Source of the DNA: Pontibacter sp. G13
Lineage (GTDB): Bacteria; Bacteroidota; Bacteroidia; J057
Direction: 5' to 3'
Length of the DNA: 64,000 bases
Assembly (NCBI RefSeq): GCF_031851795.1
Contig: NZ_CP134696.1
Coordinates: 620,001 to 684,000 of the forward strand
The notes beneath the pieces were generated by a model that was not told where the DNA came from, ran no database searches, and saw only the letters and a list, made by a program, of their open reading frames with translations. Of the stretch, positions 23,054-41,730 are shown piece after piece. Made by a program: the position numbers and the translations under genes. Each line of letters starts with the position of its first letter. Position 1 is the stretch's first letter.

Positions 23054-24232
23054 TCAACCAGATAGCGACTGGGAGTTGCGGCCTTCCTCATTGAACCTGC
23101 CCCGATCTGATGCGCGGGGCATTTCGTCTAGATCCCCCAAATGTGCCGGACCTTGGGCGACTTTCTGAATGGTATCCACGATTTGTTTAGCGAAGACCTC
23201 CACCGAAAAATCCCCAGCGCGCAATCGGGCTTGTTGCCCCATTTCCTTTCGCGAAGCCGGATCTTCTATCCATGACCGCAAGCATAGTTCGACCTCCTCC
23301 AGATGACGCATGTCTGCGTGAAATCCATCGATCCCGGGTCTGACGATTTCCACTGGCGCACCGACCGGCGGCACAATCGCAGGCAATCCGTATTGCATCC
23401 CTTCCACAATGGTCATCCCAAATGTTTCAGGCCATTCGATGGGATGAGAAAGGCTCACCAGACAATCAGCGAATTGATAGAAGGGATGGACATCGGTCTG
23501 GGCAGGGTACAATTTGACATTTGCTGGAATTAATTCCGCACCCAGAAATCGATCGATCTGCGACTGGGTTTGGCTGATGACCAAGGTGAATTGAGCCTCC
23601 GGAACCCGACGCGCCAGTTCTAGATATTCGAAGATCCCTTTGGCCTTTTTCAAGGAACAAATCATCAAAACTCGCAATGGTCCGTCATACGATTCCTGCG
23701 GGGCTGACTGTGCCTTGCGGACAAAATCTGCCGACAAGGCATTGAAGATCACGTTTTGAGGAATTCTGGGAAATTCGTGGTAGTCCTGCAAATACCTCGA
23801 AACGAAGATGAGATGATCCGCGGTCCGCTGAATCGTTCCCGTCAGCATCGCTGTGAAGGCGGGAGGCTGGAAGGTTGTCTCATGAATGTGATATATCACC
23901 CGTTTGCCCATCCATTTCGCCGCCCAGCCCGTCGAAGCAGGCAAGATCGTATTCGCAAAAAACACAACCTCTTCATTTCGATACTTCAGCAGCCGGAAGA
24001 ACAGGGCAATCTGACTGAGGGTGAAGTTGATCAACCTGAGATATTTGTTGGGCGACCATCGGTACCAATGCAGAAAATGCCTCGTGCATGGAGCATCGTC
24101 CAGGAAACCCGGTCCATCACTGGTGTATAGATCGGTCTCGATTCGAGCATCTGACAGGGCCCGAAGGGTCTGGGAGAGGACCAGTGGGCTTCCTGTGTAA
24201 TTGTTGTAAAGGTGCGTAACGACTACTTTCAT
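23054..24232 (-). CDS. GT4 family glycosyltransferase (exopolysaccharide cluster)
   Basis: The frame is open from 24358, but the start at 24232 (MKVVVTHLYNNYTGSPLVL) is right: it makes an ATGA overlap with the stop of the upstream glycosyltransferase and gives 392 residues. The GT-B fold shows a C-terminal nucleotide-sugar site with HPIEWPETFGMTIVEGMQYGLPAIV, the E-x7-E-type motif of GT4. The sugar donor is unknown. It is the last gene of the polysaccharide cluster, so it probably adds one sugar of the repeat unit on the cytoplasmic side. Confidence 0.92.
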   Translation of the reverse strand: MKVVVTHLYNNYTGSPLVLSQTLRALSDARIETDLYTSDGPGFLDDAPCTRHFLHWYRWSPNKYLRLINFTLSQIALFFRLLKYRNEEVVFFANTILPASTGWAAKWMGKRVIYHIHETTFQPPAFTAMLTGTIQRTADHLIFVSRYLQDYHEFPRIPQNVIFNALSADFVRKAQSAPQESYDGPLRVLMICSLKKAKGIFEYLELARRVPEAQFTLVISQTQSQIDRFLGAELIPANVKLYPAQTDVHPFYQFADCLVSLSHPIEWPETFGMTIVEGMQYGLPAIVPPVGAPVEIVRPGIDGFHADMRHLEEVELCLRSWIEDPASRKEMGQQARLRAGDFSVEVFAKQIVDTIQKVAQGPAHLGDLDEMPRASDRGRFNEEGRNSQSLSG

Positions 24233-25533
24233 GCGTTTCCGATGGAGGATGGATTGCCAGAATCTTGAGAGGCGCCCGAAGGAGGAAGGGTGTCCGTCCC
24301 CGCTGAGGGGATCAGTTGTCGGTAGATTTGCTGGACAAACTGCGCTTTGACGCGCCAATCAAACCACTGCTCAAATCTCGTCCGAGCGCCAATGCGAAGC
24401 CTATCGAGACTTTGGGGATTGCGGTAAAGCCGCTCAAGCGCATCGGCAAATTCACACACGCTTCGTGCATAATTGGTGTAGGGAACGCGGATTCCACAGG
24501 TCTGGGTCACAAATTCTCCCGGGCCGAAATTGTCGAAGCACACCACGGGCAGACCGTAAGACAATGCTTCAGGAATCACCATACCGGCACCTTCATGGGA
24601 AGGAAACAGGAAGACATCCGCAGATCTATACCGCTCAAACAATTCGGACTGGGGCATCCAGTTGACCAGCTCGATCTGCTGCCCGGCGTCGGCCCGATGG
24701 ATCATTTCCTGCAATTGTGCTTGCATGGGGCCTTTTCCGACCAAGGTGAATCGCACCTGCCGGCGGTCCCGAGGATTCAGCCGAGCCATGAAGGTAGTGA
24801 AAGCCCGAATCGCCAAATCAGGGGCTTTCAGCGGTACAAATCGTCCCACGCATAACACCTCAAACTTGGGATTGGGGACCTTTGCAGCAAGCGGTTTGGA
24901 TGCACATCCGACTGCGGGCATCCGGTGCGTTTTCCGGGCAGGAAGTTCCAGCACTTGCTGTACGGAGGAATTCATCACCAAAATAGCTTCCGCATTCCGT
25001 ACTGAATCCTTCAACCCATTGCTCCATTTCCAGAAGAATTGCTTGACGCCCCATTTCATTTCTTCCATCACCCATTGCTTAGTCCCATAGGGCTTCTTCA
25101 CGTATCCTTCCGGCATTTTGGGATGATGTCCAATCGGTCCCCAGACCACAGGCTTCCCTAGTTTCCAAGTTTGGACCGGGGTCCAGTCATTGTGGAAATT
25201 CAGGCTGTGTACGATATCGAATCTCAGACCGAGGGATTCCACAAACTGAGGCAGGGCCCGTTGCCAAAGCAGATAATAAGGCAACGCCCCAAAGCTTCCT
25301 CGCTTCCAAAATCGTTGCCATTGGGGCAAATCAAACCCCACGAAAGCGAGATGTTCAGGAATCCTGCCCGGATGCTCCTTTCGAAAGCGGTCGATATGCG
25401 GCAGATTATTGGCACGTGTGATCACCGTCACCTGACTATATTCGGCCAGGTTGATCACCCAATTCCAGCCGGTACCATCTTCAGAACCTTTGTAGGGATT
25501 GACAGCATAGGCCGTCACAAGCACATGAATCAT
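24229..25533 (-). CDS. GT4 family glycosyltransferase (exopolysaccharide cluster)
   Basis: 434 residues from the ATG at 25533 (MIHVLVTAYAVNPYKGSED); a TTG at 25548 overlapping the upstream stop is an alternative. GT-B fold: the N-terminal domain carries the GT4-type Gly loop (PYKGSEDGTGWNW). The C-terminal domain has VGRFVPLKAPDLAIRAF and PSHEGAGMVIPEALSYGLPVV with the donor-binding Glu residues. It shares its last four bases with the next glycosyltransferase. Donor and acceptor are unknown. Confidence 0.92.
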   Translation of the reverse strand: MIHVLVTAYAVNPYKGSEDGTGWNWVINLAEYSQVTVITRANNLPHIDRFRKEHPGRIPEHLAFVGFDLPQWQRFWKRGSFGALPYYLLWQRALPQFVESLGLRFDIVHSLNFHNDWTPVQTWKLGKPVVWGPIGHHPKMPEGYVKKPYGTKQWVMEEMKWGVKQFFWKWSNGLKDSVRNAEAILVMNSSVQQVLELPARKTHRMPAVGCASKPLAAKVPNPKFEVLCVGRFVPLKAPDLAIRAFTTFMARLNPRDRRQVRFTLVGKGPMQAQLQEMIHRADAGQQIELVNWMPQSELFERYRSADVFLFPSHEGAGMVIPEALSYGLPVVCFDNFGPGEFVTQTCGIRVPYTNYARSVCEFADALERLYRNPQSLDRLRIGARTRFEQWFDWRVKAQFVQQIYRQLIPSAGTDTLPPSGASQDSGNPSSIGNA

Positions 25534-25544
25534 GTATGAAATCG

Positions 25545-26306
25545 TCAATCAACGGATGAAACAGATCGTTGGGTTGAATCCAACATGGAGAGGTCTGAGG
25601 CTTTGGGAATGGGCGTAGATCTGGTTTTGAGGACTTTGGCTGGGACGCCCCCGATGACGGAATTGGCAGGCATGGATTTGGTGATGACAGCTCCCGCCGC
25701 CAGCACACAATTGTCTCCGATTTCCACGCCGTCTAGAATCGTGACTTTGGCACCAATCCAGCAATTCCGGCCAATCTTGATTCCCTTTCGGGTATGGCCT
25801 TGCAGGCGAATGGGAACTTCGGGATCGGAGAACACATGGTTTTCGGGATGGCAGCTCAGATAGGCACCGATGATGCAATCCGCGCCAATTTCGAGGCCTC
25901 CAGCACCTCCTAGATGAGCAAAATCTCCCAAACCCACTCGATCGCCAATCCGGATGTAGGCACCGAGGTCGTGGAACGTCTGCGAAATCACGAGTCGGCT
26001 GTAGGCACCGATATTCACATGATCGCCAATGACCAACGGATATTTTCCCAAGGCACTCAGATAGGCCCCTTCGTGGATATTCACATATCGGCCGATCTGC
26101 ATGTTGCCGGGGTATTGAATCCTCACCCGAGGTCCCAGAAACCACATTTTTGGCACTTTCCCACGAAATAGCAACATCCAGGAGCGCAGCCACCAGCCTA
26201 GCTTGTGCATGGAAAACGCCCAGATCATCCCCGAGGAAATGGCTGGATCTAATCGAAAATCAGGGTTCTTCCGCCTAGCGAATCGAGTCAGTAATTGTGT
26301 CAGCAT
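25545..26306 (-). CDS. left-handed beta-helix (hexapeptide) O-acyltransferase
   Basis: 253 residues. An N-terminal helical part with an amphipathic stretch (WAFSMHKLGWWLRSWMLLF) leads to repeated hexapeptide units (IGDHVNIGAYS, IGDRVGLGDFAHLG, IGADCIIGAYLS, IGRNCWIGAKVTILDGVEIGDNCVLAAGAVIT). The end has NSVIGGVPAKVLK, typical of WcaF/NodL/CysE-like acetyltransferases. It probably O-acetylates a sugar of the exopolysaccharide using acetyl-CoA. It sits 18 bases after the kinase-like gene. Confidence 0.92.
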   Translation of the reverse strand: MLTQLLTRFARRKNPDFRLDPAISSGMIWAFSMHKLGWWLRSWMLLFRGKVPKMWFLGPRVRIQYPGNMQIGRYVNIHEGAYLSALGKYPLVIGDHVNIGAYSRLVISQTFHDLGAYIRIGDRVGLGDFAHLGGAGGLEIGADCIIGAYLSCHPENHVFSDPEVPIRLQGHTRKGIKIGRNCWIGAKVTILDGVEIGDNCVLAAGAVITKSMPANSVIGGVPAKVLKTRSTPIPKASDLSMLDSTQRSVSSVD

Positions 26307-26324: not shown

Positions 26325-27629
26325 CTAAAACACTTCTTTGACAATGGTGGATTCAATGAGCTCCATCGTCTTGGCGAGGTCCCGATTGTTGATTTTCAGA
26401 TAAATGCAATTGGGGTGCTCGCGTTCGAGCGTTTCGAAGAGGTTGAGGTATCCTTTGGTGAGGTGCTGAATATCGTCAGCAGAGAGCTCCTTTTTTCGTG
26501 CCAATATCACTTCGGGGTCTGCGTACAGGAGGATATTCAATCGCGGCTTATTGATCCACCCAAACATGCCCTTGACAGCGCGGGTGTTGATCTTGAGATT
26601 CGCTCTTTTGGGATCGACAATGAAATCATAGAAATAGCGATCGTACAGGAGGATTCTCCCTCGACGATTGTGTCGGAGTTTCACCAACGGTTGGCCAATC
26701 AGATAGTCCAGATAATACCACCCAAAACGCATCCAGGAGGCCAAGACATTCTGATTGTTTCCTTGTCTTGGAAGCGAACTGGCAGCTCTTGCCTCCGCAC
26801 CTTTCTTGCCGTATTTCAAGCTACTCAGGATGGGGAGAATAGAGGGACGCAATCTCAGGACGGTCACTTCCTGTCGATACTTTTCTTCCAGCAGCTTCTT
26901 GGTCATTTCCAGAATCGTGGATTTGCCTGCGCCATCTACTCCACTGAAGGTGATGGTAGGCCTCGTTCGGCTAAATGAATCTCGCATCCATGCCCATTGG
27001 TTTTGCAAAGCCGAGAGGCCTTTATTGGCAGGCATTTGCTCTAAATTGGAAAGCACCCATTCCGCTCGATCGCCGATATCGAATAGATCTGCGGCACTCG
27101 GAAACACCCCCGGAAATTTGGCCTGAAGATGATCCAGAATGTCCTCTTGCGCCAGTTCCGGCAATTGCTCGAAGTAGCTTCGGTATTTTTCCGGAACTTC
27201 TGCATCGTTCAAGCCATAGAATAGAATCAGATATTCGAAGGAATGAACCGTATTGGCGACCTTGACTTGCTCCACATTCATCTGAGCCATATCCAAGACT
27301 TCCTCCACGTCCATGAAGATGACCTGCTTGCGACGGATCTTGTAGATCAGATCGATGTCCAGATAGGAACCATCTTGGAAATACAGCTCGAAATAGGCGG
27401 CATGGTCAAATTCCCGGCATTGGGATTTCAACAGCGAAGGGTGGTTCTGAATCAAGGTTTTCCACTCGTCGAGGTCCTTGAAGTCAATGACCATATCCAC
27501 ATCTGTCCGTGCTCCGATATCTTCTATTCGCGGGTAAAAATATTTGAGATAGGCATAGCGCATACTTCGGATATTTCCGAATAGCTCTTGCAAATATCTC
27601 ATTCGGTCATTGATACGCGTCTTATTCAT
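26325..27629 (-). CDS. nucleotidyltransferase-like / thymidylate-kinase-like fusion (exopolysaccharide cluster)
   Basis: 434 residues. The N-terminal part (about 1-130) resembles a nucleotidyltransferase fold: TDVDMVIDF gives an acidic pair and YLDIDLIYK the third acidic strand. The C-terminal part (about 225-434) is a P-loop kinase like thymidylate kinases: Walker A GVDGAGKST, a DRYFYD motif (as in DRYYYS of TMK) and LLYADPEVILARKKEL in the lid region. Real TMK is about 210 residues and unfused. Related fusions occur in surface-polysaccharide loci, but the substrate is not known to me. It may phosphorylate or nucleotidylate a sugar or lipid intermediate. A start at 27605 is possible. Confidence 0.75.
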   Translation of the reverse strand: MNKTRINDRMRYLQELFGNIRSMRYAYLKYFYPRIEDIGARTDVDMVIDFKDLDEWKTLIQNHPSLLKSQCREFDHAAYFELYFQDGSYLDIDLIYKIRRKQVIFMDVEEVLDMAQMNVEQVKVANTVHSFEYLILFYGLNDAEVPEKYRSYFEQLPELAQEDILDHLQAKFPGVFPSAADLFDIGDRAEWVLSNLEQMPANKGLSALQNQWAWMRDSFSRTRPTITFSGVDGAGKSTILEMTKKLLEEKYRQEVTVLRLRPSILPILSSLKYGKKGAEARAASSLPRQGNNQNVLASWMRFGWYYLDYLIGQPLVKLRHNRRGRILLYDRYFYDFIVDPKRANLKINTRAVKGMFGWINKPRLNILLYADPEVILARKKELSADDIQHLTKGYLNLFETLEREHPNCIYLKINNRDLAKTMELIESTIVKEVF

Positions 27630-27676: not shown

Positions 27677-28951
27677 TCAGGGTTTCAGGGTGTCTTGTCT
27701 CAGGTAGGCCTCCAGCGAGCTTTCCCATACATCCAGCAGCCAATACACTTGCTGGTGGACCTTGGGCTCCTGGAGATAAATATTGAGGTAGTAGGTGATG
27801 TTGTCGAGTAGGTATAATCCGTGCAGTAGATGAATATCCAGTTGAAATTGTTCGACCATCATGCGCGTGGTAGGTAGTCTCAAATCGCGCAAAAGCTCTC
27901 TGCGGATCTGCGGCCATTTCTGGCGAAGCAGCATGACCCCCGATTGATAGCTGAAATGAAACATGTCGTACAACAGCGGCCGAGATGCCTTCGAAAGCTC
28001 CCAATCGTACACATAGATTCCTTTGTCGTCGATGTACATGTTCCACGGAGTGAAGTCGCCGTGAGTCATGGACACGCGGATATGTTGCTCTGCAGGAATC
28101 GAATCAAAAACCTCTGTCAGCATGGACACGATGCGCCGGATTTGCACCAACTCGATCGCAGGATCGTGCACTCGACAAACCTTGAGGTGCTGAATTCGGG
28201 TGTGGATTTCGCTCCAAAAGGGCAGCTGAGAAAGTTGGTCCACATATCCGAATGCTTGGTACATCTCCCTGAGTGCCCGGACATGGACCTCGCCAATTCG
28301 TGCCTGTTCCCTCCCATGATCCGGTCTCACATTAGTCAAGATCAGCGCTTGATCGGTCGCACCCGCCACACTTGGCGCATGCATGGCCGAGAAATTCCAG
28401 TCCGCCAAATCTCTCAAACTCTCCTCTTCCCTGCGAATGAGTTGGATCGATTTCAATGAATGGGCAATCTTCACGAAATGGGTGGTGCGACTTCCCTGAT
28501 TGAGTGCCACAATGGTCTTTCGATTCTCTCCGACTGTTCCCGTAAATACCGCATAACTGTCAAATCCCACCTGACTGAGAATTTCTTCCAGTCCTAATAC
28601 TTCCGATTCGGGGATTCCCACTTCGAAATATCCGGAGCAAAGCATTTTGGCCTGACGGAAAAAATAGGCCAGATAGGTCGTCAACTTGTAAGCTTTGGCC
28701 GTCAAGCTAGCAGAATTGTACAGGGCCAGATGACTGGGATGTGGATTATCGGCGGGAAAAAACCAACGAACTCCCCCAGTTGGGTTATTGATGTAGAGAT
28801 ATCGTTTCACCTTCAATCCCGACTTGGGATCGATAGGCTGGTCCCAAGTGAATTCAATTTGCTCGGAAGGTCTTCCAAGCCTGAAATCGGGATTGCCGAG
28901 CAGGATTTGGCCAATACGTTGGCGATCTGGATCTATACTTCTAATCTGCAT
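27677..28951 (-). CDS. APH/choline-kinase-fold phosphotransferase (exopolysaccharide cluster)
   Basis: 424 residues. The catalytic loop THGDFTPWNMYID (Brenner motif HxD) and the metal-binding VYDWELS are those of the aminoglycoside phosphotransferase/choline kinase fold. The N-terminal part is less typical, with the expected Lys around FVKIAHS. In a polysaccharide cluster the substrate is more likely a sugar, a lipid or a polyol than a drug. It follows the polymerase gene by 6 bases and precedes the NTase/TMK-like fusion by 47 bases, suggesting a shared pathway step. Confidence 0.8.
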   Translation of the reverse strand: MQIRSIDPDRQRIGQILLGNPDFRLGRPSEQIEFTWDQPIDPKSGLKVKRYLYINNPTGGVRWFFPADNPHPSHLALYNSASLTAKAYKLTTYLAYFFRQAKMLCSGYFEVGIPESEVLGLEEILSQVGFDSYAVFTGTVGENRKTIVALNQGSRTTHFVKIAHSLKSIQLIRREEESLRDLADWNFSAMHAPSVAGATDQALILTNVRPDHGREQARIGEVHVRALREMYQAFGYVDQLSQLPFWSEIHTRIQHLKVCRVHDPAIELVQIRRIVSMLTEVFDSIPAEQHIRVSMTHGDFTPWNMYIDDKGIYVYDWELSKASRPLLYDMFHFSYQSGVMLLRQKWPQIRRELLRDLRLPTTRMMVEQFQLDIHLLHGLYLLDNITYYLNIYLQEPKVHQQVYWLLDVWESSLEAYLRQDTLKP

Positions 28952-28957: not shown

Positions 28958-30205
28958 TTATCCTAGGTTGGGACGCCCTTTTACCTTCATGAAGTAAATG
29001 TGGACGATAAACAGCCACCACATGATCCCGTAATTAGCATCTCCAAAGATCCCAAACTCGGTCAGGGAATTCACAAAGATGCCGATGAACATCCCCACCC
29101 CTAGGTGTTTCAGAAATTTGTTTTGCTCTCGCATCCATCCTCGGAAGGTGAATAGCATCTGAGAGCCGCAAGTGACCGCTCCCATCAAGCCGAGGTTCAG
29201 CAATAGCTGCATAAATGTGTTGTGGGTCATGGCACCGGGGTAAGACCGGATGGAAGGGAAGCGATCTGTATGGTAAATGCGCATGAATCCGAACCCCTGC
29301 AAAGGCCGTTCTGTGAATCCATACGTCAAGAGATCCTGCCAAAAAGGAAGTCGGCCCGTCATACTCATGACTTCATCCACATCCCCTTCCTTGACGAAGA
29401 TGGTGAAAAATAGCACCGGAGAGACCAACACGCCAATCACAAATGTGGGGATAATTAACTTTGCCTTGCCCGATGCCAAAACGAAATAAAAGGTTGTCCC
29501 GAAAAAGCTGATCAATGAAGACCTAGACTGCGTGAGCAGCAATGCCAACAAGATCAGCACCCATCCAAGGCCTTTCCAAAAGGTCAATTTGCTGCGCATC
29601 AAATGGGTGTACATGCATCCAGCCCCCACCACGCAGAGCATTCCCAACTCATTTGGGTTGATAATCCAACCTCCCAATCGCTGCACCTCCCCTCCATGTG
29701 TGGCTCGAAAATAGGCGTCCGGATTGACGATCGCCCCCAAGAGAAATTGAACCGCAATCCACGATACCGCACAGAACACCACATAATCCAGATGCATCGG
29801 TCGGCTGTATTTCCCTTGGTCATTGTAGATCAAAAAGGATCGCCAGGCGAAAAACACGAAAACGACGCATTCCACATCCATGGCTACTTGCAAGGCAGAC
29901 CAAGCCCGGTCCGAAGACCACATGATGGAGGCAAACCCCAAAAACAAATATTGGATGTAGAGGGCAAACCCGAGGATATTGCGGTATTCGAATTGTGTGG
30001 GATTGCGAGGATCGTCGAATTTGCGGCACATCAGGAAGAATACGCCTGTCAAAAGACTTCTCAATCCGGTCTTGAAAATCCGAGTCACAGCCGCACTCTC
30101 CGAGATCATGAAATAGCTGTTGATCCGGAGAAAAATAAAGATGATAAACAGGGTGATGAGGCCACTCCCTGTCTTCTGGACCTGCTCACGCGTAAGTTCC
30201 GGCAT
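28958..30205 (-). CDS. O-antigen ligase / Wzy-type polysaccharide polymerase
   Basis: The frame is open from 30256, but ATG 30205 (MPELTREQVQKTG) fits better and overlaps the upstream glycosyltransferase by only 20 bases, giving 415 residues. About ten membrane helices are seen. The large periplasmic loop contains LTYGFTERPLQGFGFMRIYH and THNTFMQLLLNLGLMGAV, the latter being the His-containing motif of the WaaL/Wzy family. In this context it most likely polymerises repeat units on the periplasmic side (Wzy role). A ligase role is less likely because no lipid A genes are nearby. Confidence 0.88.
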   Translation of the reverse strand: MPELTREQVQKTGSGLITLFIIFIFLRINSYFMISESAAVTRIFKTGLRSLLTGVFFLMCRKFDDPRNPTQFEYRNILGFALYIQYLFLGFASIMWSSDRAWSALQVAMDVECVVFVFFAWRSFLIYNDQGKYSRPMHLDYVVFCAVSWIAVQFLLGAIVNPDAYFRATHGGEVQRLGGWIINPNELGMLCVVGAGCMYTHLMRSKLTFWKGLGWVLILLALLLTQSRSSLISFFGTTFYFVLASGKAKLIIPTFVIGVLVSPVLFFTIFVKEGDVDEVMSMTGRLPFWQDLLTYGFTERPLQGFGFMRIYHTDRFPSIRSYPGAMTHNTFMQLLLNLGLMGAVTCGSQMLFTFRGWMREQNKFLKHLGVGMFIGIFVNSLTEFGIFGDANYGIMWWLFIVHIYFMKVKGRPNLG

Positions 30206-31313
30206 ACATCTCGATGGTTCGGCGGGCAATCCGCTCCCAATTGTATTCAGTCGCAATCATCGAATGCGCTCGCTCTCCCATCGGGGCTAGCTGCCCTCGG
30301 TGAAATAGGGCCTCTGCTCGTAGAAGTTCCTTGCCGATGCCTTCGGCCGACAGATCCTCCAAATAAATACCAGCATCATGATTCCGAATGGCATCTCCCA
30401 TATTGGTTGGAAATGAAACCATGCAGGGAACTCCCAGTCCTGCAGCCTCCAAGACCGATGTAGGCAATCCTTCGCTATAGGATGGGTGAACAAACAGGTC
30501 GGAATGACCGATCAAATTGAGCTTCTCCGCTCCGAACTTGGGCCCAAGGAAAAGGACCGATTCATTCAGGTTCGCCTGCTCAACACGTTGCTCCAGCTCC
30601 TTGCGGTCTCCCCCATCCCCGATGAGCCAGAGGACACCGGTACCGCCAGTTTTGAGATACCGATACATTCCTTCGATCAAGATGTCCAATCCTTTGTAAC
30701 GGATGTCCAGTCTGCCACAGAATGAAAATAGCGGTCCCTCAGGCCGAGGAATATCGGTCGGGGTATATGCCAGCTCAGACAAGTTCTGACCGTTGGGGAT
30801 CAGCACCTTGTTGGAGAGGGTGATTCGTTTGTCTATCGTTTGAAATTGGTTCTGACCGAGGAACTGCACAGCATGGGCATGCTTGAGCACCCACCCTTCG
30901 AAGAGTTTGAGGTAGAGTTCCTTTCTCCAAGCACTGCGCTGAAGCGCTACAGGGCTCAATCCTCCGTGCGGGCAGAATACGTATGGGATTCCAAGGTGAT
31001 GAAGGGCTTTGGCAGCATGATAGAATTCCGGAATGAATATCCCATGGATGTGCACGAGGGCTTCCTTTCCCTTCAATTCCTCAAAAGCTTGCTGAAGCTC
31101 ATCGTCCAGCCAAAGCTTCCAGGGATTGGCACGAAAGAGCCGGAGTCCGTATTCGCGCTGCTCTACCCCCTGCGTGGGAGTCGGCGTAATGCCCCAAATT
31201 TGAACCGCATGGCCCAAATGGGTCTGATGCAAGGCAAGGTTGTGCGCCACCTTGTTGACACCGTTCATTCGGTTCAACCGCGCTTTTCCGAGGACGAGGT
31301 GGATGATTTGCAT
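30186..31313 (-). CDS. GT4 family glycosyltransferase (exopolysaccharide cluster)
   Basis: 375 residues. GT-B fold: N-terminal NGVNKVAHNLALHQTHLGH (acceptor-side glycine loop) and C-terminal FCGRLDIRYKGLDILIEGM followed by HPSYSEGLPTSVLEAAGLGVPCMV, the GT4 donor-binding region. It overlaps the polymerase gene. The donor sugar cannot be read from the sequence. Confidence 0.93.
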   Translation of the reverse strand: MQIIHLVLGKARLNRMNGVNKVAHNLALHQTHLGHAVQIWGITPTPTQGVEQREYGLRLFRANPWKLWLDDELQQAFEELKGKEALVHIHGIFIPEFYHAAKALHHLGIPYVFCPHGGLSPVALQRSAWRKELYLKLFEGWVLKHAHAVQFLGQNQFQTIDKRITLSNKVLIPNGQNLSELAYTPTDIPRPEGPLFSFCGRLDIRYKGLDILIEGMYRYLKTGGTGVLWLIGDGGDRKELEQRVEQANLNESVLFLGPKFGAEKLNLIGHSDLFVHPSYSEGLPTSVLEAAGLGVPCMVSFPTNMGDAIRNHDAGIYLEDLSAEGIGKELLRAEALFHRGQLAPMGERAHSMIATEYNWERIARRTIEMYAGTYA

Positions 31314-31912: not shown

Positions 31913-33385
31913 CTAGTCTGAAGGAGCAAACCATACCCAAAGATTCACTGCACTGGGCGCCCAATCGGTATGGGACAATCCCCCTCGGTTCGAAGGAGTG
32001 GTGACTGGTCGTTGAGTCGGAGTAGGCATACTGGGCCTCGTCGTAGGCGCTGGACGGACAGTCGGAGTTGCCGGTCTATTACTGGGAACACTTGGCCTAG
32101 CCGGAGTCACTGTCGGACGCTGGGTCGGGGGTTGAATATCCCTCGCAGGTCGCTGTGTACTCGGAGGTCGAGTCGAAGGAGATTGATTCCCATGGGTGGG
32201 CCGATTGGTTTCAGGACCGATGGGCCTTCCCGGACGATTCACTGGAACATTCGGATTCTGCACAACTTCATTTCTCACAGAGCGATGAAACCGTGTCTGG
32301 GAATGCGGATGTCGCTGATAATGTCGGTAGTAATGCGCATTCAAATGTGCATAGCGATAGGGATAATATCGATATTGCCAATGCATGTACCATGCTGAAG
32401 GCAGCCCAAAGAATACCATATTCCCCCCGGGGCCCCAAACAAAGCCTGCATGCATGTACCAAGGCATCGGCCTCCAATAAGGCGTAGAAAACCAATACGG
32501 ATATCCATACCAATAGGAGTAGTGATGATACACCCGCACATTGACTTCTGGTGAGAAATCCATGTTTTGGTACTTGTTGTAATCATACTGCTCGCCTTGG
32601 TCCTTGGCATATTGCCGAGCGGCCTGCTGCATTTCCCGGTATGCTTCTGGATCGGCGGCCAACTGTGCTTGAAAATCTGCCAATTCACTTGCCTGTGCCT
32701 CGGCCACTTCCACCGCTACTTGTTTGAGGTAGGAAGCCGTCCATGCAGGATCATCCCGATAAGCCGCCCCGAGATTCACTGCGAACGTCATATTCGAAGT
32801 CAGCACCTCCATGATCTCCGGCAATCCGACCATATCGTACAAAGCGCCTTGAACCTCCCTCGGGTATCTCCGAACCAATTCATCCAAGGCGATATCGATG
32901 TTGGCATTCATTTGGTCGATTTGACTCAAAGCATCGAAGCGCTTCCGGCCAATTCGCTTGGCTTCCGCTTGGATCTCTTCTGGCAAGGTAGGGACCCATT
33001 CCTTGAGTTCGGCTTTGGACATTTTCCCATCCTTCACCAAAGCATGGATCACCCCGGGATACCGAGCCAATTCATAAAGCGCTTCCTGATCCTTGGGCGC
33101 GTAGATTTGTACCAATTCCAAAAATTCAATCTGTGTGGAATTTTGCAACTGCGATATCTTGGTCAAGGCATCTGGATATTGAGCCGTAACTAACACGGAT
33201 TTCAGGATGTCATCGGGATACATCGACAAGGACTCGACGATCGTTCGATCTTGTTCCAAAAGTGAATGATAAGGAGCGTTCCTATCTTGGGCGAATCCGA
33301 TAGATCCGAAGAGACAGAATGCCCCAAAGAGGATGGCTGTGGCCCATTTTGCATACCCCGGGCCAGGTCGGCTGGTAGGTTTCAT
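31913..33385 (-). CDS. exported DUF3300-like protein with aromatic-rich and Pro/Thr/Arg-rich regions
   Basis: 490 residues. Signal peptide about 1-33 (ends GSIGFAQ). Residues about 40-75 (LSMYPDDILKSVLVTAQYPDAL) resemble the start of DUF3300 (YPDxLLxxxLxAxxYP). The middle is helical. Residues about 290-375 are extremely rich in Tyr, Trp and His (YWYGYPYWFSTPYWRPMPWYM). The tail (about 385-470) is a low-complexity Pro/Thr/Arg/Ser region. There is no lipobox or clear T9SS tail. It is probably an envelope protein, and its aromatic belt might contact polysaccharide, but this is speculation. It is flanked by flippase and glycosyltransferase genes. Confidence 0.7.
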   Translation of the reverse strand: MKPTSRPGPGYAKWATAILFGAFCLFGSIGFAQDRNAPYHSLLEQDRTIVESLSMYPDDILKSVLVTAQYPDALTKISQLQNSTQIEFLELVQIYAPKDQEALYELARYPGVIHALVKDGKMSKAELKEWVPTLPEEIQAEAKRIGRKRFDALSQIDQMNANIDIALDELVRRYPREVQGALYDMVGLPEIMEVLTSNMTFAVNLGAAYRDDPAWTASYLKQVAVEVAEAQASELADFQAQLAADPEAYREMQQAARQYAKDQGEQYDYNKYQNMDFSPEVNVRVYHHYSYWYGYPYWFSTPYWRPMPWYMHAGFVWGPGGNMVFFGLPSAWYMHWQYRYYPYRYAHLNAHYYRHYQRHPHSQTRFHRSVRNEVVQNPNVPVNRPGRPIGPETNRPTHGNQSPSTRPPSTQRPARDIQPPTQRPTVTPARPSVPSNRPATPTVRPAPTTRPSMPTPTQRPVTTPSNRGGLSHTDWAPSAVNLWVWFAPSD

Positions 33386-33528: not shown

Positions 33529-34815
33529 CTAGGCCTCTTTGGGCTTCACATTGGCGGGCTTGTATTTCAGGGAAATCAGATACACGACGAGCATAATGAT
33601 TTGCTGCCCGATCAATCCATACATCACGCCCATGAGTCCCCATTCTGCCACAACCGGTTCTGCCAATAACAAACTGAGCACGGTGGTGATTCCATAGGCA
33701 ATGAAAATCGGACGTGTGCGGCCGAGCGTTCTCAACGCAAATCTCAAAGGATAGCCCGGGAAGATGAACACATAAAGTACACAGAAAGCCATCAGCAGGT
33801 AGCTATATTCGCCATATTCCGCCCCATAAATGCCCACGATCAGGGGATGGTGCAAAACCGCCAATACACACAAAATCGCTCCGATCCCCCATGCAGACTT
33901 CCGGGTATTTCTGTTCAGATATTCCCACATGCCTTTTTCCCCTCCTGATCGATAAGCTTGGGCTGCCTTGACGGGCACCATATTTTCCATCGCCAAGAAG
34001 AAGATATGAGAAGCCCCCATCAAGTTTTGGGCGACTTTCAACCCTCCGACCGCAGCCGGTCCCAGTAATGCCGCTGCTGCCAAGATGAAGTAATTGGCCG
34101 AGAAGAACTGCAAGACCGATTTGCCAATCAACCACGACCCCATACTCCAATGCTTCTGAAAAACGGGCATCAAGCTTTTCCAACCAGCCCAGCCCAATCC
34201 CGAAAGTAGGTATCCCAACAGTGCCGCCAATCCAAAGCTCCCGGCCACACTCCAGAAAACAACACGAAGCGTCAAGCCCCCCAAAAAGTAAATAGCCGTA
34301 ACAGTTCCGACAAACCCCACATAGGCCACCATATCTATGATCAACGCATAACCGCTTTTTTGTTGAGCAAAAAACAGCCTCCTGAAATACTCTTGAAACA
34401 AAAAGCTACAGACTGCAAGAGGCAGCACGGGAAACAGGAAGCCAATGCCCCAATCCGGAAACCATTCATCCGCGCCGAACACCAACCCCAATGCCAATAC
34501 GCCCACGATCCCCACGAAAGCCACTTGCAGCACAAAGGTCTGAGCGAGGTAAGCAGGTTTCTCTGATGGCTGAAGAGCAGGAAAAATGCTCATCATGGGT
34601 ACCGAGATCAATGCCTGAAGAAGACTACTGGCAAAAATCACCCCCATCCAGGCCAGACTGTACACCCCATAGGTTTCCACTCCCATAAAGCGGGCCAGCA
34701 AAATAGCGATGGCGAAATTGGAACCGCTTACCATCACTTGATCCGCCAGAATCAATTGAGTCTTGGGATCCATTTTGAGCACGGCATCTTTGAGGGCTAG
34801 CAACTTGGCTTTCAT
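33529..34815 (-). CDS. Wzx-type polysaccharide flippase (MATE/MOP superfamily)
   Basis: The ATG at 34815 (MKAKLLALKDAVLKMD) overlaps the upstream stop as ATGA, so it is preferred over the longer frame from 34932; 428 residues result. About 12 hydrophobic helices are present, with the family-typical N-terminal DQVMVSGSNFAIAILLARFMGVETYGVYSLAW (start of helix 1 and the conserved G-x-E-x-Y-G turn). It should flip lipid-linked repeat units across the inner membrane. Its coupling to the co-polymerase gene supports this. Confidence 0.9.
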   Translation of the reverse strand: MKAKLLALKDAVLKMDPKTQLILADQVMVSGSNFAIAILLARFMGVETYGVYSLAWMGVIFASSLLQALISVPMMSIFPALQPSEKPAYLAQTFVLQVAFVGIVGVLALGLVFGADEWFPDWGIGFLFPVLPLAVCSFLFQEYFRRLFFAQQKSGYALIIDMVAYVGFVGTVTAIYFLGGLTLRVVFWSVAGSFGLAALLGYLLSGLGWAGWKSLMPVFQKHWSMGSWLIGKSVLQFFSANYFILAAAALLGPAAVGGLKVAQNLMGASHIFFLAMENMVPVKAAQAYRSGGEKGMWEYLNRNTRKSAWGIGAILCVLAVLHHPLIVGIYGAEYGEYSYLLMAFCVLYVFIFPGYPLRFALRTLGRTRPIFIAYGITTVLSLLLAEPVVAEWGLMGVMYGLIGQQIIMLVVYLISLKYKPANVKPKEA

Positions 34816-37058
34816 GATTGGGCAGAATCGTTGTAACTGGGCATGGAAAAGGCAAATTGAGGCTTCTTTCGAGGGTTGAGAATCAAAAGCTGGATGGGAC
34901 CGATTCCCCACCCCAATAATTTCTTCCGACATTTTCTAATGCGAGCTTTGGAAGTTCGGTACAGGATGCAGGGAATCAAGGTAAGATCAGCGCGATTCAT
35001 CAATTCTATGGCATCATTCCGCTTCCTTACATCCGGGACTATTACGAACAGATAATCATACTCCTCCTTACAAGCATCGACTTTGGCGAGAAATCGGGGA
35101 TCGTTCAGCAAGGTTGCCGGAGAGATGGGCTGCTCCTGTTTCCCGGCAAACCAGACATCCAGATTGGGAGAAACCGATGGAGTAATCCAAGATCCTTCGT
35201 CAGCATCTCGGAAGTTCCAAATCCCAAGATCGGTATCCATGCCAAACCATTCCTTCATGTTTCCGTCCTCCAATCGAGTCTCGATCAGCAGGGTGCGTTT
35301 CCCGCAAGCAGCGGCGGCCTGTGCCAGATGCGCCATAAGCCGAGTGGCCCCTTGGCCCTTTTTCCAGCCTGCAGCGGTAATGACCTTCACCGAAGGGTCC
35401 ATCGAAAAATAGGTAATCTGGTTGCAGACATCTTGCAACACCTTCCGGGAAGTCGTGGGAAGGTCTGGCAATGTCCCTGCGATGGAATCGGGAAAGCTCA
35501 ATTCCCAATCCGTTTCACGGTTGACACGCCCCCAAGCAAGGCGAGCGAGAAATAGGTACAGGATTCCCTTGAGTAACCCGAAAAAGATCCCCAGTCCTTG
35601 CATGATCGTTCCTTGAGGTTTGATCGGTGCCTGTGGGATGAGTGCCCATTCCAACACGCGGTGAAAGGAAAACTCTGAGGTTTGGGCGACAGCGGCGATA
35701 GAGGCTTTTTCCACCAGCTCGAAATATTCCTTCTCCATCAGTTCCACTTCCCGTTCCAATTCTCGCAGAATATCGGTTCGCAAAGGCAAATCGGAGGTAA
35801 GAGTTTCCAGTTTTCCCAGCTCTTCATTGACGGATCGAAGCTTTTCCCGGTGCGTTTTCAGGGTGCGATCCAAAGCCACCAGCAAGTCCATTCGTTCGGT
35901 CCGCAGCAGGGAATCCATGGCCAACAAGTCGGGATGGATCTCCGTGTAGATTTCTGCCAGTTCCTTTCTGCGAACCAAGTTTCGATGAAATCCTCTCCAA
36001 GCTCTCACGAATGAGGCATCTCCGATTGCTTCGAAATTGAGATCTGGGACAGTTTTGAAATCTTCTTGCTTGAGATATTGGCGGAGCGCATTCATCTCCG
36101 TGAATCCATGAATCAGCCGAATTCGCATGGCTGAGACTTCCTGCTCCTTGTCGAAGATTTCCCCGAGCTCTTTGGAGACTTTTCGCACGCCCAATTCAGA
36201 TTGTACTTCCAGCATTCGAGCCTCAGCAGCTTGAAGCTTCTCCTCCATCAAGGCAGTTTCCGATTCGATGAAATCGAGTGTGGCTCCCGCTTGGGTTTGC
36301 TTATTGTCCACAAAATGGACGATGTAGGTCCTCGCCATAGCATTGGCAACATCGGCTGCTAATTCTGGGACCTCATTCCAAACATAGATATTGATGATGG
36401 GCGTTTTCTCATTCTGCAACCTGACCAGCATATTGGCGAGGATATTGTAAATGTCCATCAGGCCTTCATGACTGTGGATCACCACCTCGTATATGCCCGT
36501 CTTCAATTCCCCGGCAAATGGCCCATTTCGCAGTCTCAACGTGAGATCTCCACGAGGATGCTCATAGGTATCTCCCCATGCTCCCTGCCAATCATGGGAA
36601 CCGAGTTCATCCGCCCACGTAGCCCGGAATTTCCCGTGGTCAGGCAACACTTCGATGTGGATCGGGACATCGAGCCATGAAATTCCACGCAGCTCCCACT
36701 CCAATTTGAAAGGCCACTGTTTGTAGAGATTGTGTTTCCGGTAAGGCCCCACCCGAAAATAACTCGCCTGCACCTCCAATTCCTTCAAAGCCAGCGATAC
36801 AAAATGGTCAGATCGCACGAAGGCCAACTCTGCGAGATATTCCCCCACCCACGAAAACTGCTCGAACTCCTCGATGAATTTAGACTCGGAGGTAGCTTCG
36901 TCACTCAGCTGGATGGTCGATCGGGTCTGATAGATAGGCACGTAGGCTTTCAATTCCTCCCGTGCATTGTACCAGCCATAACTCATCATGATCAGCAAGA
37001 ACCACCAGGCCCGAAAGATGGGGATAAACACCCGTTTGATGTCTCTGGAGTCATTCAT
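34812..37058 (-). CDS. polysaccharide co-polymerase (Wzz/BY-kinase fusion type), kinase domain degenerate
   Basis: 748 residues. An N-terminal membrane helix (about 12-30) is followed by a Wzz-like periplasmic domain with long coiled coils (about 250-460), and a second membrane helix about 480-500. The cytoplasmic domain (about 540-748) corresponds to a BY-type tyrosine kinase, but its active site is broken. The P-loop GWKKGQGAT (564-572) has Ala where the catalytic Lys should be. The Walker A' position reads LLIETRLED instead of IDADxR. The Walker B region (YDYLFVIVPD, about 664-673) lacks the usual Asp. There is no Tyr cluster at the C-terminus. It probably sets chain length as a structural co-polymerase, together with its upstream paralogue, one base away. 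Confidence 0.85.
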   Translation of the reverse strand: MNDSRDIKRVFIPIFRAWWFLLIMMSYGWYNAREELKAYVPIYQTRSTIQLSDEATSESKFIEEFEQFSWVGEYLAELAFVRSDHFVSLALKELEVQASYFRVGPYRKHNLYKQWPFKLEWELRGISWLDVPIHIEVLPDHGKFRATWADELGSHDWQGAWGDTYEHPRGDLTLRLRNGPFAGELKTGIYEVVIHSHEGLMDIYNILANMLVRLQNEKTPIINIYVWNEVPELAADVANAMARTYIVHFVDNKQTQAGATLDFIESETALMEEKLQAAEARMLEVQSELGVRKVSKELGEIFDKEQEVSAMRIRLIHGFTEMNALRQYLKQEDFKTVPDLNFEAIGDASFVRAWRGFHRNLVRRKELAEIYTEIHPDLLAMDSLLRTERMDLLVALDRTLKTHREKLRSVNEELGKLETLTSDLPLRTDILRELEREVELMEKEYFELVEKASIAAVAQTSEFSFHRVLEWALIPQAPIKPQGTIMQGLGIFFGLLKGILYLFLARLAWGRVNRETDWELSFPDSIAGTLPDLPTTSRKVLQDVCNQITYFSMDPSVKVITAAGWKKGQGATRLMAHLAQAAAACGKRTLLIETRLEDGNMKEWFGMDTDLGIWNFRDADEGSWITPSVSPNLDVWFAGKQEQPISPATLLNDPRFLAKVDACKEEYDYLFVIVPDVRKRNDAIELMNRADLTLIPCILYRTSKARIRKCRKKLLGWGIGPIQLLILNPRKKPQFAFSMPSYNDSAQS

Positions 37059-37059
37059 G

Positions 37060-39471
37060 CTACCTTTGATTCCAGATCCGTTTCACATAATTATTCAGCA
37101 TCTTCCGCCGGTCCCCAAATCCAGCTCTCCGGAAACTTCTCCCCCTGGTGGATTCATGCGGCTTCACCCGAGTGAGGTGAAAGAGGACCGCCTTCAACAT
37201 TTTCCTCCTAGCTCCTCCCCCAACCGGTGGAAGCGCGTCCTCATTCAAAGAATATGTCGCCTGAGCGGAAGCTTTTTCCCGTTGGATCAGCAGGACATGG
37301 AGGTCTTCAATCTTGAATCTCTGCATGAGGGATTCCGTCTCGGCGATATCCGCAAACAGCGTGATGTCAGCACGGACCACGAAGAGGTTGAAATCGCAGT
37401 ATTGCATGACCGCAATGCTGTCTCTCACATCTTCAATGGCCGGAAGATTGATGATGATCCGATCGAACTTTTCGCGAAAAGTCTCGATCAAGCGTCGCAT
37501 GTTTCTATGCAAAATCACCAAGGTCGGGATATCGGTCATGGGCTCCCCAGAAGGCAGGAAGAAGAGGTTCTCCTGATCCGTCTCAGCAACGACTTGTTCC
37601 CATTTTGCGGTTTCCTTGACGACTTGCCCCAAGCCACGGACATTTTCACGATGGAAATAACGATGCAGCTCGGGCACATAGAGGTCTGCGTCAATCACCA
37701 GGGTTTTGAGGCCGATGACTGCGAATGATTTGGCCAAATTCAGGGTGACCTTTTCAGCTCCTTCCCTTCGACCGTGGGAGAAAACCGTGATCACTTTGGG
37801 CTCATCTAGCAGCTGAATATTGATCGCCAGATTAATGAAATCCTGCGAAATCATCGACTTGGCTTGGGGGATATGATTGATGGTCGAAATGACCGGACTA
37901 TCCAGGTGGTCCTCAATATCAGAGGGATGAAATACCGAGGCGCGGAGATAATTGTAGAAAAACACGATCCCCAATCCCACGATCATCCCGACCATGACCG
38001 ACATGCCCATGATCAGACCTTTCTGAGGAGAGACGGGCGTTCGGGGGAGTTCTGCGGGTTCGAGCAATTTGTGGAAGGCAATAGTCGCCGCCGCTCCGAT
38101 GGAGGCTTCCGTGCGTTTTTGAAGCAAAAATCCGTACACCTGCTCCAAGGTCAAGAATTGTCTGCGGAGGACCAGCAATTGACGCTCTACATCTGGCAAA
38201 TTGGTGAATTCGGATTCAGCAGATTTCAACTGCGAATCCATGTCATCGAATTTCGCCTGATTGGTACTCAAGGTATTCTGGACACTTCGAACCAGATTAT
38301 TCCTCGTCCGCTCCAACTCCTGCTGAGTTTTCAATACGTCAGGATGCTCGTCAGTGAAATCCACTCGCAATTCCCGAAGGGTAGACCGAAGGGTATTGAT
38401 TTTGGAAATCGCATCCGTAAAGGTGGGGTCTTGGAGCGTCTCGTAATTGGGAGTCAGGGTTTTGCGCTCAATATCCGATTGAAGGTAGCCCAACAGATTC
38501 CGCAGTTCCGTTTGTTGAAGGGAAAGATTCAGCTTGCGCATCTCCAATTCGGTGAGTCGCTTGAGTTGCGCATCGGTCTCCATGGCCAAGTCTACTACCT
38601 GATGTTTGGACTTGAATTCGGCCAACTTTTCCTCCGCGGCCTGAAGTTGTTCTTCCGCGAGGTCTACCTGGCCATTGATGAATTCCAGCGCTTTCCCAGC
38701 CGTTTGTGTCTTGCTATAGATGAAATCCTCGATATAGGTTTCCGCCAAAGTATTGACGACGTCTTGGGCCATTTGAGGCACCTCATGCTTGAACTTGAGC
38801 TTGACAATCGGGACTTCTTTGTCGGGGAGATCTACCGCCAAATTGTGATTGGCATATTGTCCCAAAAGCTTCTGGATGCTATTGATCTTAAACCCAAATT
38901 CCCCTTGATCAAAAGAACCGGGGTTTTCAGCGAGAAAGGTAGCGTTTGGAAGCACCCTAAATTCAATTCCTGACTCCCGGACCCAAGCTCCCAGTTCGGC
39001 GGCTTGATGATACTCCACCCCTTCCTTTTCATACGCCCAAGTGAGCGTTCCTCCGGGCAATAGATTGAAATGAAAGAGGACATCTCTCCAGGTAGAATCC
39101 GAGAGTTTGTATTCGACTTCGAATGGAGCCCCGGGATACAGGAGTCTTGGATTGGATCGGACAAATCGGAATTTGGATAATCGGAGATTGAGTTTTTCCA
39201 CCGTTTTCTTCACCAGATACTTGGACCGCATGACCTCTACCTCGGCAAGTACTTGTCCTGTCTGAGAGAACGCCTCAAACCCTTTCAAGAAGTCGGAAGC
39301 ACCGGTATTCTTGTCATTGATCTGGAGTTTGGCGTGTGCCAAATACATCGGAACGGCATAGTACAAATTGAGATATCCCAATGACCCTCCGATGATTGCA
39401 GCCAACGCGAGTACCCACCACCCTTTGATAAAAGGGCGAAAGAATCGCATTAATTGGCCGTTTGCACTCAT
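37060..39471 (-). CDS. polysaccharide co-polymerase (Wzz/BY-kinase fusion type), kinase domain degenerate, basic tail
   Basis: 803 residues with the same layout as its downstream paralogue: membrane helix about 15-35, Wzz domain, coiled coils (about 260-460, including VDFTDEHPDVLKTQQELE), second helix about 490-510, cytoplasmic kinase-like domain about 540-740. Walker A' is kept (VIDADLYVPELH). The P-loop is distorted (SHGRREGAEKVT, from 565) and Walker B has Asn for Asp (IIINLP, about 672). The C-terminus has no Tyr cluster; instead it ends in a basic stretch (RRKMLKAVL, GRSFRRAGFGDRRKML). It likely controls polymer length without phosphorylating itself. It lies 11 bases after the OPX gene and one base before the second copy. 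Confidence 0.86.
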   Translation of the reverse strand: MSANGQLMRFFRPFIKGWWVLALAAIIGGSLGYLNLYYAVPMYLAHAKLQINDKNTGASDFLKGFEAFSQTGQVLAEVEVMRSKYLVKKTVEKLNLRLSKFRFVRSNPRLLYPGAPFEVEYKLSDSTWRDVLFHFNLLPGGTLTWAYEKEGVEYHQAAELGAWVRESGIEFRVLPNATFLAENPGSFDQGEFGFKINSIQKLLGQYANHNLAVDLPDKEVPIVKLKFKHEVPQMAQDVVNTLAETYIEDFIYSKTQTAGKALEFINGQVDLAEEQLQAAEEKLAEFKSKHQVVDLAMETDAQLKRLTELEMRKLNLSLQQTELRNLLGYLQSDIERKTLTPNYETLQDPTFTDAISKINTLRSTLRELRVDFTDEHPDVLKTQQELERTRNNLVRSVQNTLSTNQAKFDDMDSQLKSAESEFTNLPDVERQLLVLRRQFLTLEQVYGFLLQKRTEASIGAAATIAFHKLLEPAELPRTPVSPQKGLIMGMSVMVGMIVGLGIVFFYNYLRASVFHPSDIEDHLDSPVISTINHIPQAKSMISQDFINLAINIQLLDEPKVITVFSHGRREGAEKVTLNLAKSFAVIGLKTLVIDADLYVPELHRYFHRENVRGLGQVVKETAKWEQVVAETDQENLFFLPSGEPMTDIPTLVILHRNMRRLIETFREKFDRIIINLPAIEDVRDSIAVMQYCDFNLFVVRADITLFADIAETESLMQRFKIEDLHVLLIQREKASAQATYSLNEDALPPVGGGARRKMLKAVLFHLTRVKPHESTRGRSFRRAGFGDRRKMLNNYVKRIWNQR

Positions 39472-39482: not shown

Positions 39483-40265
39483 TTAGTTGCTAGGTCTTGT
39501 CAGGGAAATGATCAATGCCGCCGAGGCGAGAATTCCGACAATCGGAACGACAATTCCCGACAAAGACTCTTCTAGGCGCTTTGTACGGCGCTCAGGGATA
39601 TAGAGAATATCTCCACTTTGCATGAGGAGACCAGAAGCTTCCAACGTCCGCACATCGGTCAAATCCACCACGATTTCCTCCATTTCAGGCGTATTGTAGT
39701 TGCGGATCACCTTGATCTGGTTTTTCAGGGCGTATTTGGTAAATCCCCCAGCCTGACCAATCACCTGCACCAAGGATTGTTGTTCTCGCCGTATCTGGTA
39801 GTTTCCGGGCGTATTCACCTCACCCATTACCGTCACAAAATGATTCAGCACCCGCAAATAGACGATGGGAGACTTGATATACTTGGCGTACAATCTATCC
39901 AGATACAGATTGGCCTCACGAACGGTGAGCCCTGCAAGCTTGATGGTCCCGATCAATGGCAAGGATACTTCTCCCCGATGATCGATGGTGATGTATTTTC
40001 CCTCAGCGAGCGTTGATTTGTTGGTACTGAAAGCCGATCCGACCCCCAACTCATCATGTCCCCATATACTGACCGTAATCTTGTCATCCTCCTTGAGCAC
40101 ATGCTCCTTGGATACATCTAGATCTGGACTCACCACTACAGGGGTATCTGTTTCCCGATCTTGAAACAATCGCTGGGTAGTGCATGAATTGACCAGCAAC
40201 GCCAGACCAATCATCCACCATCTTAGGTCGTTTATGAGCCTACCAGCATGATTATTCGATCGCAT
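39483..40265 (-). CDS. OPX/Wza-type polysaccharide export lipoprotein
   Basis: 260 residues. Lipoprotein signal with Cys28 (ALLVNSC); a start at residue 18 is possible. Residues about 55-135 form the Poly_export domain (LKEDDKITVSIWGHDEL, DHRGEVSLPLIGTIKLAGLTV) and about 140-190 an SLBB domain (VTVMGEVNTPGNYQI, SLVQVIGQAGGFTKYA). A C-terminal hydrophobic helix (about 238-256) is typical of Bacteroidota OPX proteins and may anchor it. It forms the outer-membrane or periplasmic part of the export channel with the co-polymerases. First gene of the cluster, divergent from the sigma-factor operon. Confidence 0.93.
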   Translation of the reverse strand: MRSNNHAGRLINDLRWWMIGLALLVNSCTTQRLFQDRETDTPVVVSPDLDVSKEHVLKEDDKITVSIWGHDELGVGSAFSTNKSTLAEGKYITIDHRGEVSLPLIGTIKLAGLTVREANLYLDRLYAKYIKSPIVYLRVLNHFVTVMGEVNTPGNYQIRREQQSLVQVIGQAGGFTKYALKNQIKVIRNYNTPEMEEIVVDLTDVRTLEASGLLMQSGDILYIPERRTKRLEESLSGIVVPIVGILASAALIISLTRPSN

Positions 40266-40475: not shown

Positions 40476-41027
40476 ATGATTGCGTTGAAAGAGACCCATC
40501 TACTGGCTGAATTAAGGGATCCTGCTACCAAAGTGGCGGCATTCGACCGGCTGATCAAAGGCTATCAGGAGGTATTGTACCATCATATTCGGAGGATTGT
40601 CATCAATCACGACGACACCGATGATGTCCTTCAAAACACCCTGATCAAGGCTTGGCAGAATCTGGATAAATTCCGGGGGGACGCCAATATCAAAACTTGG
40701 ATCTACCGGATCGCCACCAATGAAGCCCTGAATTTTCTCAAGAAAAAGAAGCGACAGGCGTTTCAGGAAGTAGAAGACCTTCAAAATGACCTTCGCCATA
40801 GCCTATCTTCTGGCAGGTATGTGGATGGCGATGAGATTCAGATTCGGTTGCAGGAAGCCATTATTGCCTTGCCTGAACGCCAAAAGCTGGTATTCAATCT
40901 TCGATACTTCGATGAGATGCCCTACGATGAAATTTCCAGTATTCTGGGAGTAACCGTGGGTGCGCTCAAGGCTAGTTATCATCACGCTGTCAAAAAGGTT
41001 GAGCATCATTTGAAACGCTATGCATGA
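40476..41027 (+). CDS. ECF-type RNA polymerase sigma factor
   Basis: 183 residues. Region 2 (about 20-90: VINHDDTDDVLQNTLIKAWQNLDKFRGDANIKTWIYRIATNEALNFL) and region 4 (about 125-180: LPERQKLVFNLRYFDEMPYDEISSILGVTVGALKASYHHAVKKVEHHL) are both present, as in sigma-70 family ECF factors. It overlaps the downstream anti-sigma-like gene by 8 bases. With the Spy-like protein it forms a probable envelope-stress operon. Target promoters are unknown; divergence from the OPX gene makes regulation of the polysaccharide cluster possible. Confidence 0.95.
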   Translation: MIALKETHLLAELRDPATKVAAFDRLIKGYQEVLYHHIRRIVINHDDTDDVLQNTLIKAWQNLDKFRGDANIKTWIYRIATNEALNFLKKKKRQAFQEVEDLQNDLRHSLSSGRYVDGDEIQIRLQEAIIALPERQKLVFNLRYFDEMPYDEISSILGVTVGALKASYHHAVKKVEHHLKRYA

Positions 41028-41673
41028 TTCAACTAACTGGGAAAGAATGAACGATCTACACCATCAGCATAACAACCAAGATCCCGAAATTTCCGAGGGA
41101 TCTGTATTGGGCTCCTTGCGAAAACAGCATGTATTCCAACAGCCAGAGGGATACATGGCCCAGATGCGTCAGCGGATGCTGGACATGGCAGAGGATGATT
41201 TGTTGATGCAAGAAGCCCCTCTCCTATCGAGCGTATCCAAGCAATCCATTTTCAAAATTCCAGAAGGATATTTCGAAGGTTTGCATACCGCTTGGAAGGC
41301 CAAAATCAAACCCACTACAGGTCAGGTTGCGAAGATCTTGCCGATGAATGGCCATTGGGCGTCCGTCGTCTGGATGAGTGCTGCAGCGGCTATCACCTTG
41401 TTTCTGATGGTGATCGTGCCACACGAATCCACCCAAAGCGACCTAGATTGGGAGTCCATCGATACAGAGACCCTGTATTCCAGCTTGGAAGAGGAGTGGA
41501 CTTCGGACGCCGATTTGATCTATGAATGGGTGGATGAATCAGCCTTGGCGAGTGTATCTACGCTGGATTTGTCAGATCTGGAGTTGACAGATGAAGAGCT
41601 TTCAAACCTGATGGACGAAATTGACTTAAATGACCTTCAGGAGAGTATATCTTCCGACGAATTTTGGCAATAG
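41020..41673 (+). CDS. putative membrane anti-sigma factor
   Basis: 217 residues with one membrane helix (about 113-133) and an acidic C-terminal domain outside (SLEEEWTSD, LSDLELTDEEL). The N-terminal cytoplasmic part has the motif L-x-S-x-x-K-Q-x-(V/I)-F-x-x-P-E-G-Y twice (about 30-46 and 69-85), as found in Bacteroidota proteins paired with ECF sigma factors. It overlaps the sigma gene by 8 bases, which strongly suggests that it holds that factor inactive. No classical zinc anti-sigma (HxxxCxxC) motif is seen. Confidence 0.75.
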   Translation: MHDSTNWERMNDLHHQHNNQDPEISEGSVLGSLRKQHVFQQPEGYMAQMRQRMLDMAEDDLLMQEAPLLSSVSKQSIFKIPEGYFEGLHTAWKAKIKPTTGQVAKILPMNGHWASVVWMSAAAAITLFLMVIVPHESTQSDLDWESIDTETLYSSLEEEWTSDADLIYEWVDESALASVSTLDLSDLELTDEELSNLMDEIDLNDLQESISSDEFWQ

Positions 41674-41730
41674 CCAAATTCGATTATTTTGACCACCACC
41701 AACACCTTGATATTTGAGAAGATTTTACCC

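Follow-up and report, generated by a model that had tools for sequence, protein, structure and literature searches.

In the accepted model, Wzc co-polymerases must cycle between a phosphorylated and an unphosphorylated state. Escherichia coli Wzc, a PCP-2a protein with intact kinase motifs, the ExxRxxR motif and a Tyr-rich tail, cycles by phosphorylation. Its Lys-less variant K540M forms stable octamers (PMC8285477), which means that a domain without this Lys can still assemble. A phosphorylation-independent mechanism has already been proposed for EcpK/EpsV of Myxococcus xanthus and for HfsAB of Caulobacter crescentus (PMC12004946). EcpK has the BY-kinase fold without Walker A, A' and B and without a Tyr tail; although it holds none of the motifs, it binds its PCP and is required for EPS, and it ends in a positively charged, basic helix that possibly touches the membrane (PMC12004946). 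The holdfast pathway of C. crescentus likewise has a dead BY-kinase homologue with no Tyr tail. In addition, Sinorhizobium meliloti SMc01795 and Vibrio vulnificus VV1_2305 are described as combining a dead kinase domain with a PCP body in one polypeptide (Cuthbertson et al., via PMC12004946); their likeness to the proteins below lies in this description, and the account of them in PMC12004946, as far as it covers these two, mentions no tandem pair.

We have analysed two adjacent Wzc-like proteins, referred to as copy 1 and copy 2, in a stretch of 64,000 nucleotides (the window) from Pontibacter sp. G13. They resemble EcpK/EpsV in lacking the kinase motifs and the Tyr tail (copy 1 keeps A'), in belonging to a Wzx/Wzy exopolysaccharide pathway, and in the basic C-terminus of copy 1. 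On the other hand, EcpK stands alone and EpsV has no kinase domain, whereas the present proteins carry PCP and pseudokinase in one chain and are encoded as a tandem pair; HfsA and HfsB are also split proteins, and from another phylum. What is new here is a Bacteroidota operon with graded kinase loss, clade-wide loss of the ring motif (ExxRxxR), a tandem pair and a tail repeat in copy 1. Our literature search has found no paper on this operon in Bacteroidota, and nothing on PslE with a Walker A motif.

Two tandem co-polymerases with degraded kinase motifs

Both ORFs are uninterrupted, full length and adjacent on the minus strand of a Bacteroidia genome of 7.67 Mb (Table 1). In sequence searches, both match Wzc in the PCP body as well as in the BY-kinase domain, and Pfam recognises Wzz and GNVR in copy 1 and GNVR in copy 2. 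The domain order and the predicted fold are those of E. coli Wzc. In the AF2 models (mean pLDDT 80 for copy 1 and 82 for copy 2), the periplasmic part is flanked by helices at both ends, which is the PCP-2a layout. The kinase domain of copy 1 aligns with CapA1B1 at Z 31.5 (rmsd 1.6 over 219 residues), and that of copy 2 with CapAB at Z 28.5 (rmsd 1.9 over 221 residues). The models support, without proving, that the BY-kinase fold is retained in both copies, since their input alignments included active homologues and are biased towards the canonical fold.

Table 1 Features of the tandem pair and of its operon, in positions of the window.
Feature	Position	Strand	Basis or remark
Wza-like outer-membrane export protein	39483..40265	-	Poly_export, SLBB
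Copy 1, PCP-2a (Wzc-like), 803 aa	37060..39471	-	periplasmic PCP body, two TM helices, BY-pseudokinase domain
Copy 1 degenerate P-loop SHGRREGAEK (Lys to Ala572)	37750..37779	-	alignment to canonical Wzc
Copy 1 Walker A' LVIDADLYVP (D594 and D596 both kept)	37672..37701	-	alignment to canonical Wzc
Copy 1 Walker B RIIINLPA (Asp to Asn675)	37438..37461	-	alignment to canonical Wzc
Copy 1 C-terminal basic tail, two GxGxRRK repeats replacing the Tyr tail	37063..37236	-	two predicted amphipathic helices
Copy 2, PCP-2a (Wzc-like), 748 aa	34812..37058	-	pseudokinase domain more degenerate
Copy 2 degenerate P-loop GWKKGQGATR (Lys to Ala571)	35340..35369	-	alignment to canonical Wzc
Copy 2 Walker A' LLIETRL (both Asp lost: E593, R595)	35271..35291	-	alignment to canonical Wzc
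Copy 2 Walker B YDYLFVIVP (Asp to Ile673)	35034..35060	-	alignment to canonical Wzc
Wzx-like flippase	33529..34932	-	position and conserved synteny; no Pfam hit
Glycosyltransferase GT-A (GT4)	30186..31313	-	sequence search
Wzy-like polymerase	28958..30256	-	Wzy_C
APH-family kinase-like protein	27677..28951	-	sequence search
Thymidylate-kinase-like protein	26325..27629	-	sequence search
Acetyltransferase (hexapeptide, WbbJ/WcaF-like)	25545..26306	-	sequence search
Glycosyltransferase GT-B (GT4-like)	24229..25548	-	sequence search
Glycosyltransferase-like GT-C	23054..24358	-	conserved with the cluster; putative function

As is typical of PCP-2a proteins, the pair is encoded together with Wza, Wzx and Wzy, with Wzx recognised by synteny and having no Pfam hit. 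The operon runs from the Wza-like gene through copy 1, copy 2, the Wzx-like gene, a secreted protein, a glycosyltransferase, Wzy, the APH-like and thymidylate-kinase-like genes and the acetyltransferase to two further glycosyltransferases. The secreted protein (31913-33385, between Wzx and GT-A) is rich in His/Tyr and Pro/Thr and has no blastp match among those listed for the related clusters examined. A trio of an ECF sigma factor, an anti-sigma-like gene and a third small gene (40476-42273) diverges from the operon and may regulate it; the trio is kept beside the operon in the related genomes G004 (locus L064) and G001 (L065), and the sigma gene also in G077 (L146). Elsewhere in the window, GH16 glycosidase, Big_2 protein, SusD and SusC-like genes (943-8006) make up a polysaccharide utilisation locus.

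Catalytic motifs were called by alignment to canonical Wzc, using MAFFT L-INS-i in place of hmmalign, which had left several degenerate domains unaligned. The first-pass annotation, made from the letters of the window, had described both P-loops as broken, the Walker B Asp as absent from both proteins, and the A' Asp residues as kept in one and lost in the other, and the alignment bears out all three points. It had also assigned the loss of the P-loop Lys to one copy; this has to be corrected, as the Lys is replaced in both (Ala572 and Ala571). No shift of register restores a motif: GK[ST] was sought along the whole of copies 1 and 2 and is absent, which excludes a rescued P-loop. A Lys in GWKKGQGAT of copy 2 falls at the MinD signature-lysine position, but we take this as chance, because the other copy-2 protein does not have it. 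The tails hold two Tyr in copy 1 (Y740, Y795) and one in copy 2 (Y742), so that the C-terminal Tyr cluster is indeed missing, as had been noted. Overall, both copies lack the Walker A Lys, the Walker B Asp, the Tyr cluster and ExxRxxR that mark an active BY-kinase, and show the profile of a BY-pseudokinase, i.e., the fold without catalytic motifs and without a Tyr tail, with A' alone kept in copy 1. A sequencing error or a pseudogene can be ruled out, considering that the ORFs are full length and that the degenerate state is repeated in relatives.

Some P-loop proteins bind nucleotide despite a missing Lys. With its A' Asp pair kept, copy 1 may thus retain some nucleotide or metal binding.

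The apparent lack of a nearby phosphatase also stands, as the window genes that went through the Pfam scan include none. A genome-wide search with two Pfam families has found no CpsB/CapC-type PHP phosphatase and one LMW-PTP, which lies ~3.5 Mb from the tandem pair. A fourth Wzc-like protein of this genome (L070:7976-10144) keeps the P-loop GSGKTS and DTN, with the Walker B Asp and the Tyr tail absent.

Graded kinase loss across the operon family

The gene order of the operon is shared by 28 Bacteroidota genomes, with 29 clusters and 31 Wzc proteins, and the hosts include four Chryseobacterium species, Flavobacteriales and Saprospiraceae MAGs, and several further families. Of 395 Bacteroidia genomes, 20 have yielded the operon in a search anchored on Wzy. 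A single Wzc is present in nearly every cluster, and two are found only in the window genome and in G004, where Wza sits between them. G004 has a second cluster (L151), a diverged operon copy whose Wzc has likewise lost the kinase motifs. The APH-family and thymidylate-kinase-like genes, separate in the window (26325-28951), form one fused gene of ~770-920 aa in most other clusters.

We have searched these proteins for conservation of the substitutions, as the first-pass annotation had proposed, and the P-loop Lys or the Walker B Asp is lost in 18 of the 31, while 13 keep both. The Lys is absent from 16 and the Walker B Asp from 16, with both absent from 14. When the tree is built from the PCP body, with the kinase domain excluded, parsimony requires at least four losses of the Walker B Asp. 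One is in own4 and three are in the operon clade: one in the window family, one in the second G004 cluster and one in a clade of ten rows that includes Chryseobacterium. Since the loss recurs in operon relatives, the loss of the kinase site in copies 1 and 2 is real, and it falls within the recently recognised pseudokinase type.

The other elements of autophosphorylation are missing more widely. ExxRxxR upstream of the P-loop is found in none of the 31 proteins vs 42 of the 49 other PCP-kinases collected. All 31 are without the poly-Tyr tail of canonical Wzc, and their last 45 residues hold a median of 2 Tyr, against 9 in the others (p 1e-11, which is only indicative because the rows are related). 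Among the cluster proteins, those that have lost the site show fewer tail Tyr than those that have kept it, but not significantly (p 0.067). The absence of ExxRxxR from all 31, together with the few tail Tyr, indicates that this lineage left canonical autophosphorylation before, or apart from, the loss of the ATP site.

One may still suppose that the domains bind ATP as nucleotide switches without Tyr phosphorylation, with activity provided in trans by a canonical Wzc. Such a protein is encoded in the genome (L069, with intact motifs and a Tyr tail), copy 1 retains the DAD of A', and some relatives have neither a poly-Tyr tail nor ExxRxxR but still possess Lys and Asp. However, both copies have lost the Lys and the Walker B Asp and have no Tyr-rich substrate tail, and EcpK is apparently independent of the active BY-kinases of its host (PMC12004946). 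We consider this explanation very unlikely.

Purifying selection acts on the dead domain in Chryseobacterium. For the two closest pairs, the pseudokinase shows dN/dS of 0.10 (95% interval 0.05-0.17) and 0.13 (0.08-0.23), with ~0.05 for the PCP body; these values come from relatives and not from the window genus. Synonymous sites are saturated in most of the other pairs, which were therefore given no weight. Such low ratios reveal that the Chryseobacterium domain is constrained though catalytically empty. Within the window family, copy 1 is 38-40% identical between genera in this domain and 46-49% in the PCP body.

Origin and role of the second copy

Copy 2 of the window (WIN2) and the second Wzc of G004 (G004_2) are sisters with support 100/100. 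A recent, genome-specific duplication, which would place the two window copies together (WIN1 + WIN2), is rejected (p-AU 0.0012). Taken together, these results indicate a single duplication that is older than the divergence of the two genera, though both copy-2 branches are long and long-branch attraction could help their grouping. Long open frames persist in both copies. Copy 2 is an old paralogue that two genera have retained, most likely for use as an accessory subunit or in a hetero-oligomer.

The copies also differ at their ends. The paired GxGxRRK tail of copy 1 also closes the first Wzc of G004 (G004_1) and that of G001, and is absent from copy 2 and from the protein of G005, whose kinase motifs are intact. 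No such pattern occurs among the other ORFs of the six loci scanned. The pattern of the pair fits a division of labour and is compatible with a hetero-oligomer of copies 1 and 2, which the first-pass annotation had put forward as a possibility. A stricter form of this idea, an obligate hetero-oligomer (e.g. a mixed octamer) in which different pseudokinase halves have different jobs, draws on the adjacency of the two genes, on their single common duplication, kept in two genera over a long divergence, and on the tail that only copy 1 carries. Against it, the operon of relatives works with a single copy, Wza separates the copies in G004, and copy 2 evolves much faster (branch 2.25 vs 0.72), so that we rate an obligate complex as rather improbable.

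It is also conceivable, though doubtful, that copy 2 is a duplicate in decay that does little, the work of the co-polymerase being left to copy 1. Operons with a single copy prevail, and copy 2 has diverged fast, with 19% identity in the pseudokinase and 32% in the PCP body between its two known members; the former value is close to that of unconstrained sequence, and constraint on copy 2 is therefore weaker. Nevertheless, long intact ORFs (748 and 736 aa) persist in both genera, and S83, Y245 and P425, invariant across 25 homologues, are kept.

A co-polymerase with a probable scaffolding pseudokinase

Based on the above analyses, we consider it probable, at roughly 70%, that the pair acts as a phosphorylation-independent PCP-2a of the Wzx/Wzy exopolysaccharide pathway, with the fused BY-pseudokinase serving as a scaffold. 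Phosphorylation independence, already suggested by the first-pass annotation, is well supported by inference from the lost motifs, the tails, the missing ring motif, the degeneracy of relatives and the purifying selection in Chryseobacterium. The co-polymerases would form a ring-shaped oligomer in the inner membrane, and this ring would couple the Wzy polymerase to the Wza exporter and set the chain length. The cytoplasmic domain would be a structural assembly scaffold rather than an ATP-driven tyrosine autokinase, and is presumably inactive in both copies. Cycling, if there is any, might proceed by binding and unbinding, perhaps via the basic C-terminal tail of copy 1, without phosphorylation.

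A more speculative and, in our view, fairly unlikely history is that a Bacteroidota lineage dropped phosphorylation first, with its ring motif and poly-Tyr tail, then lost the ATP site repeatedly, and that two genera duplicated the co-polymerase into a tail-controlled hetero-oligomer. If true, the copy 1 tail would be a new basic control element, and the complex would be a hetero-oligomeric machine with two different pseudokinases.

Since orthologues range from intact to fully dead within one operon type, the family forms a natural series on the purpose of phosphorylation in these co-polymerases, and it also bears on which regions of the domain are still important when phosphorylation is absent.
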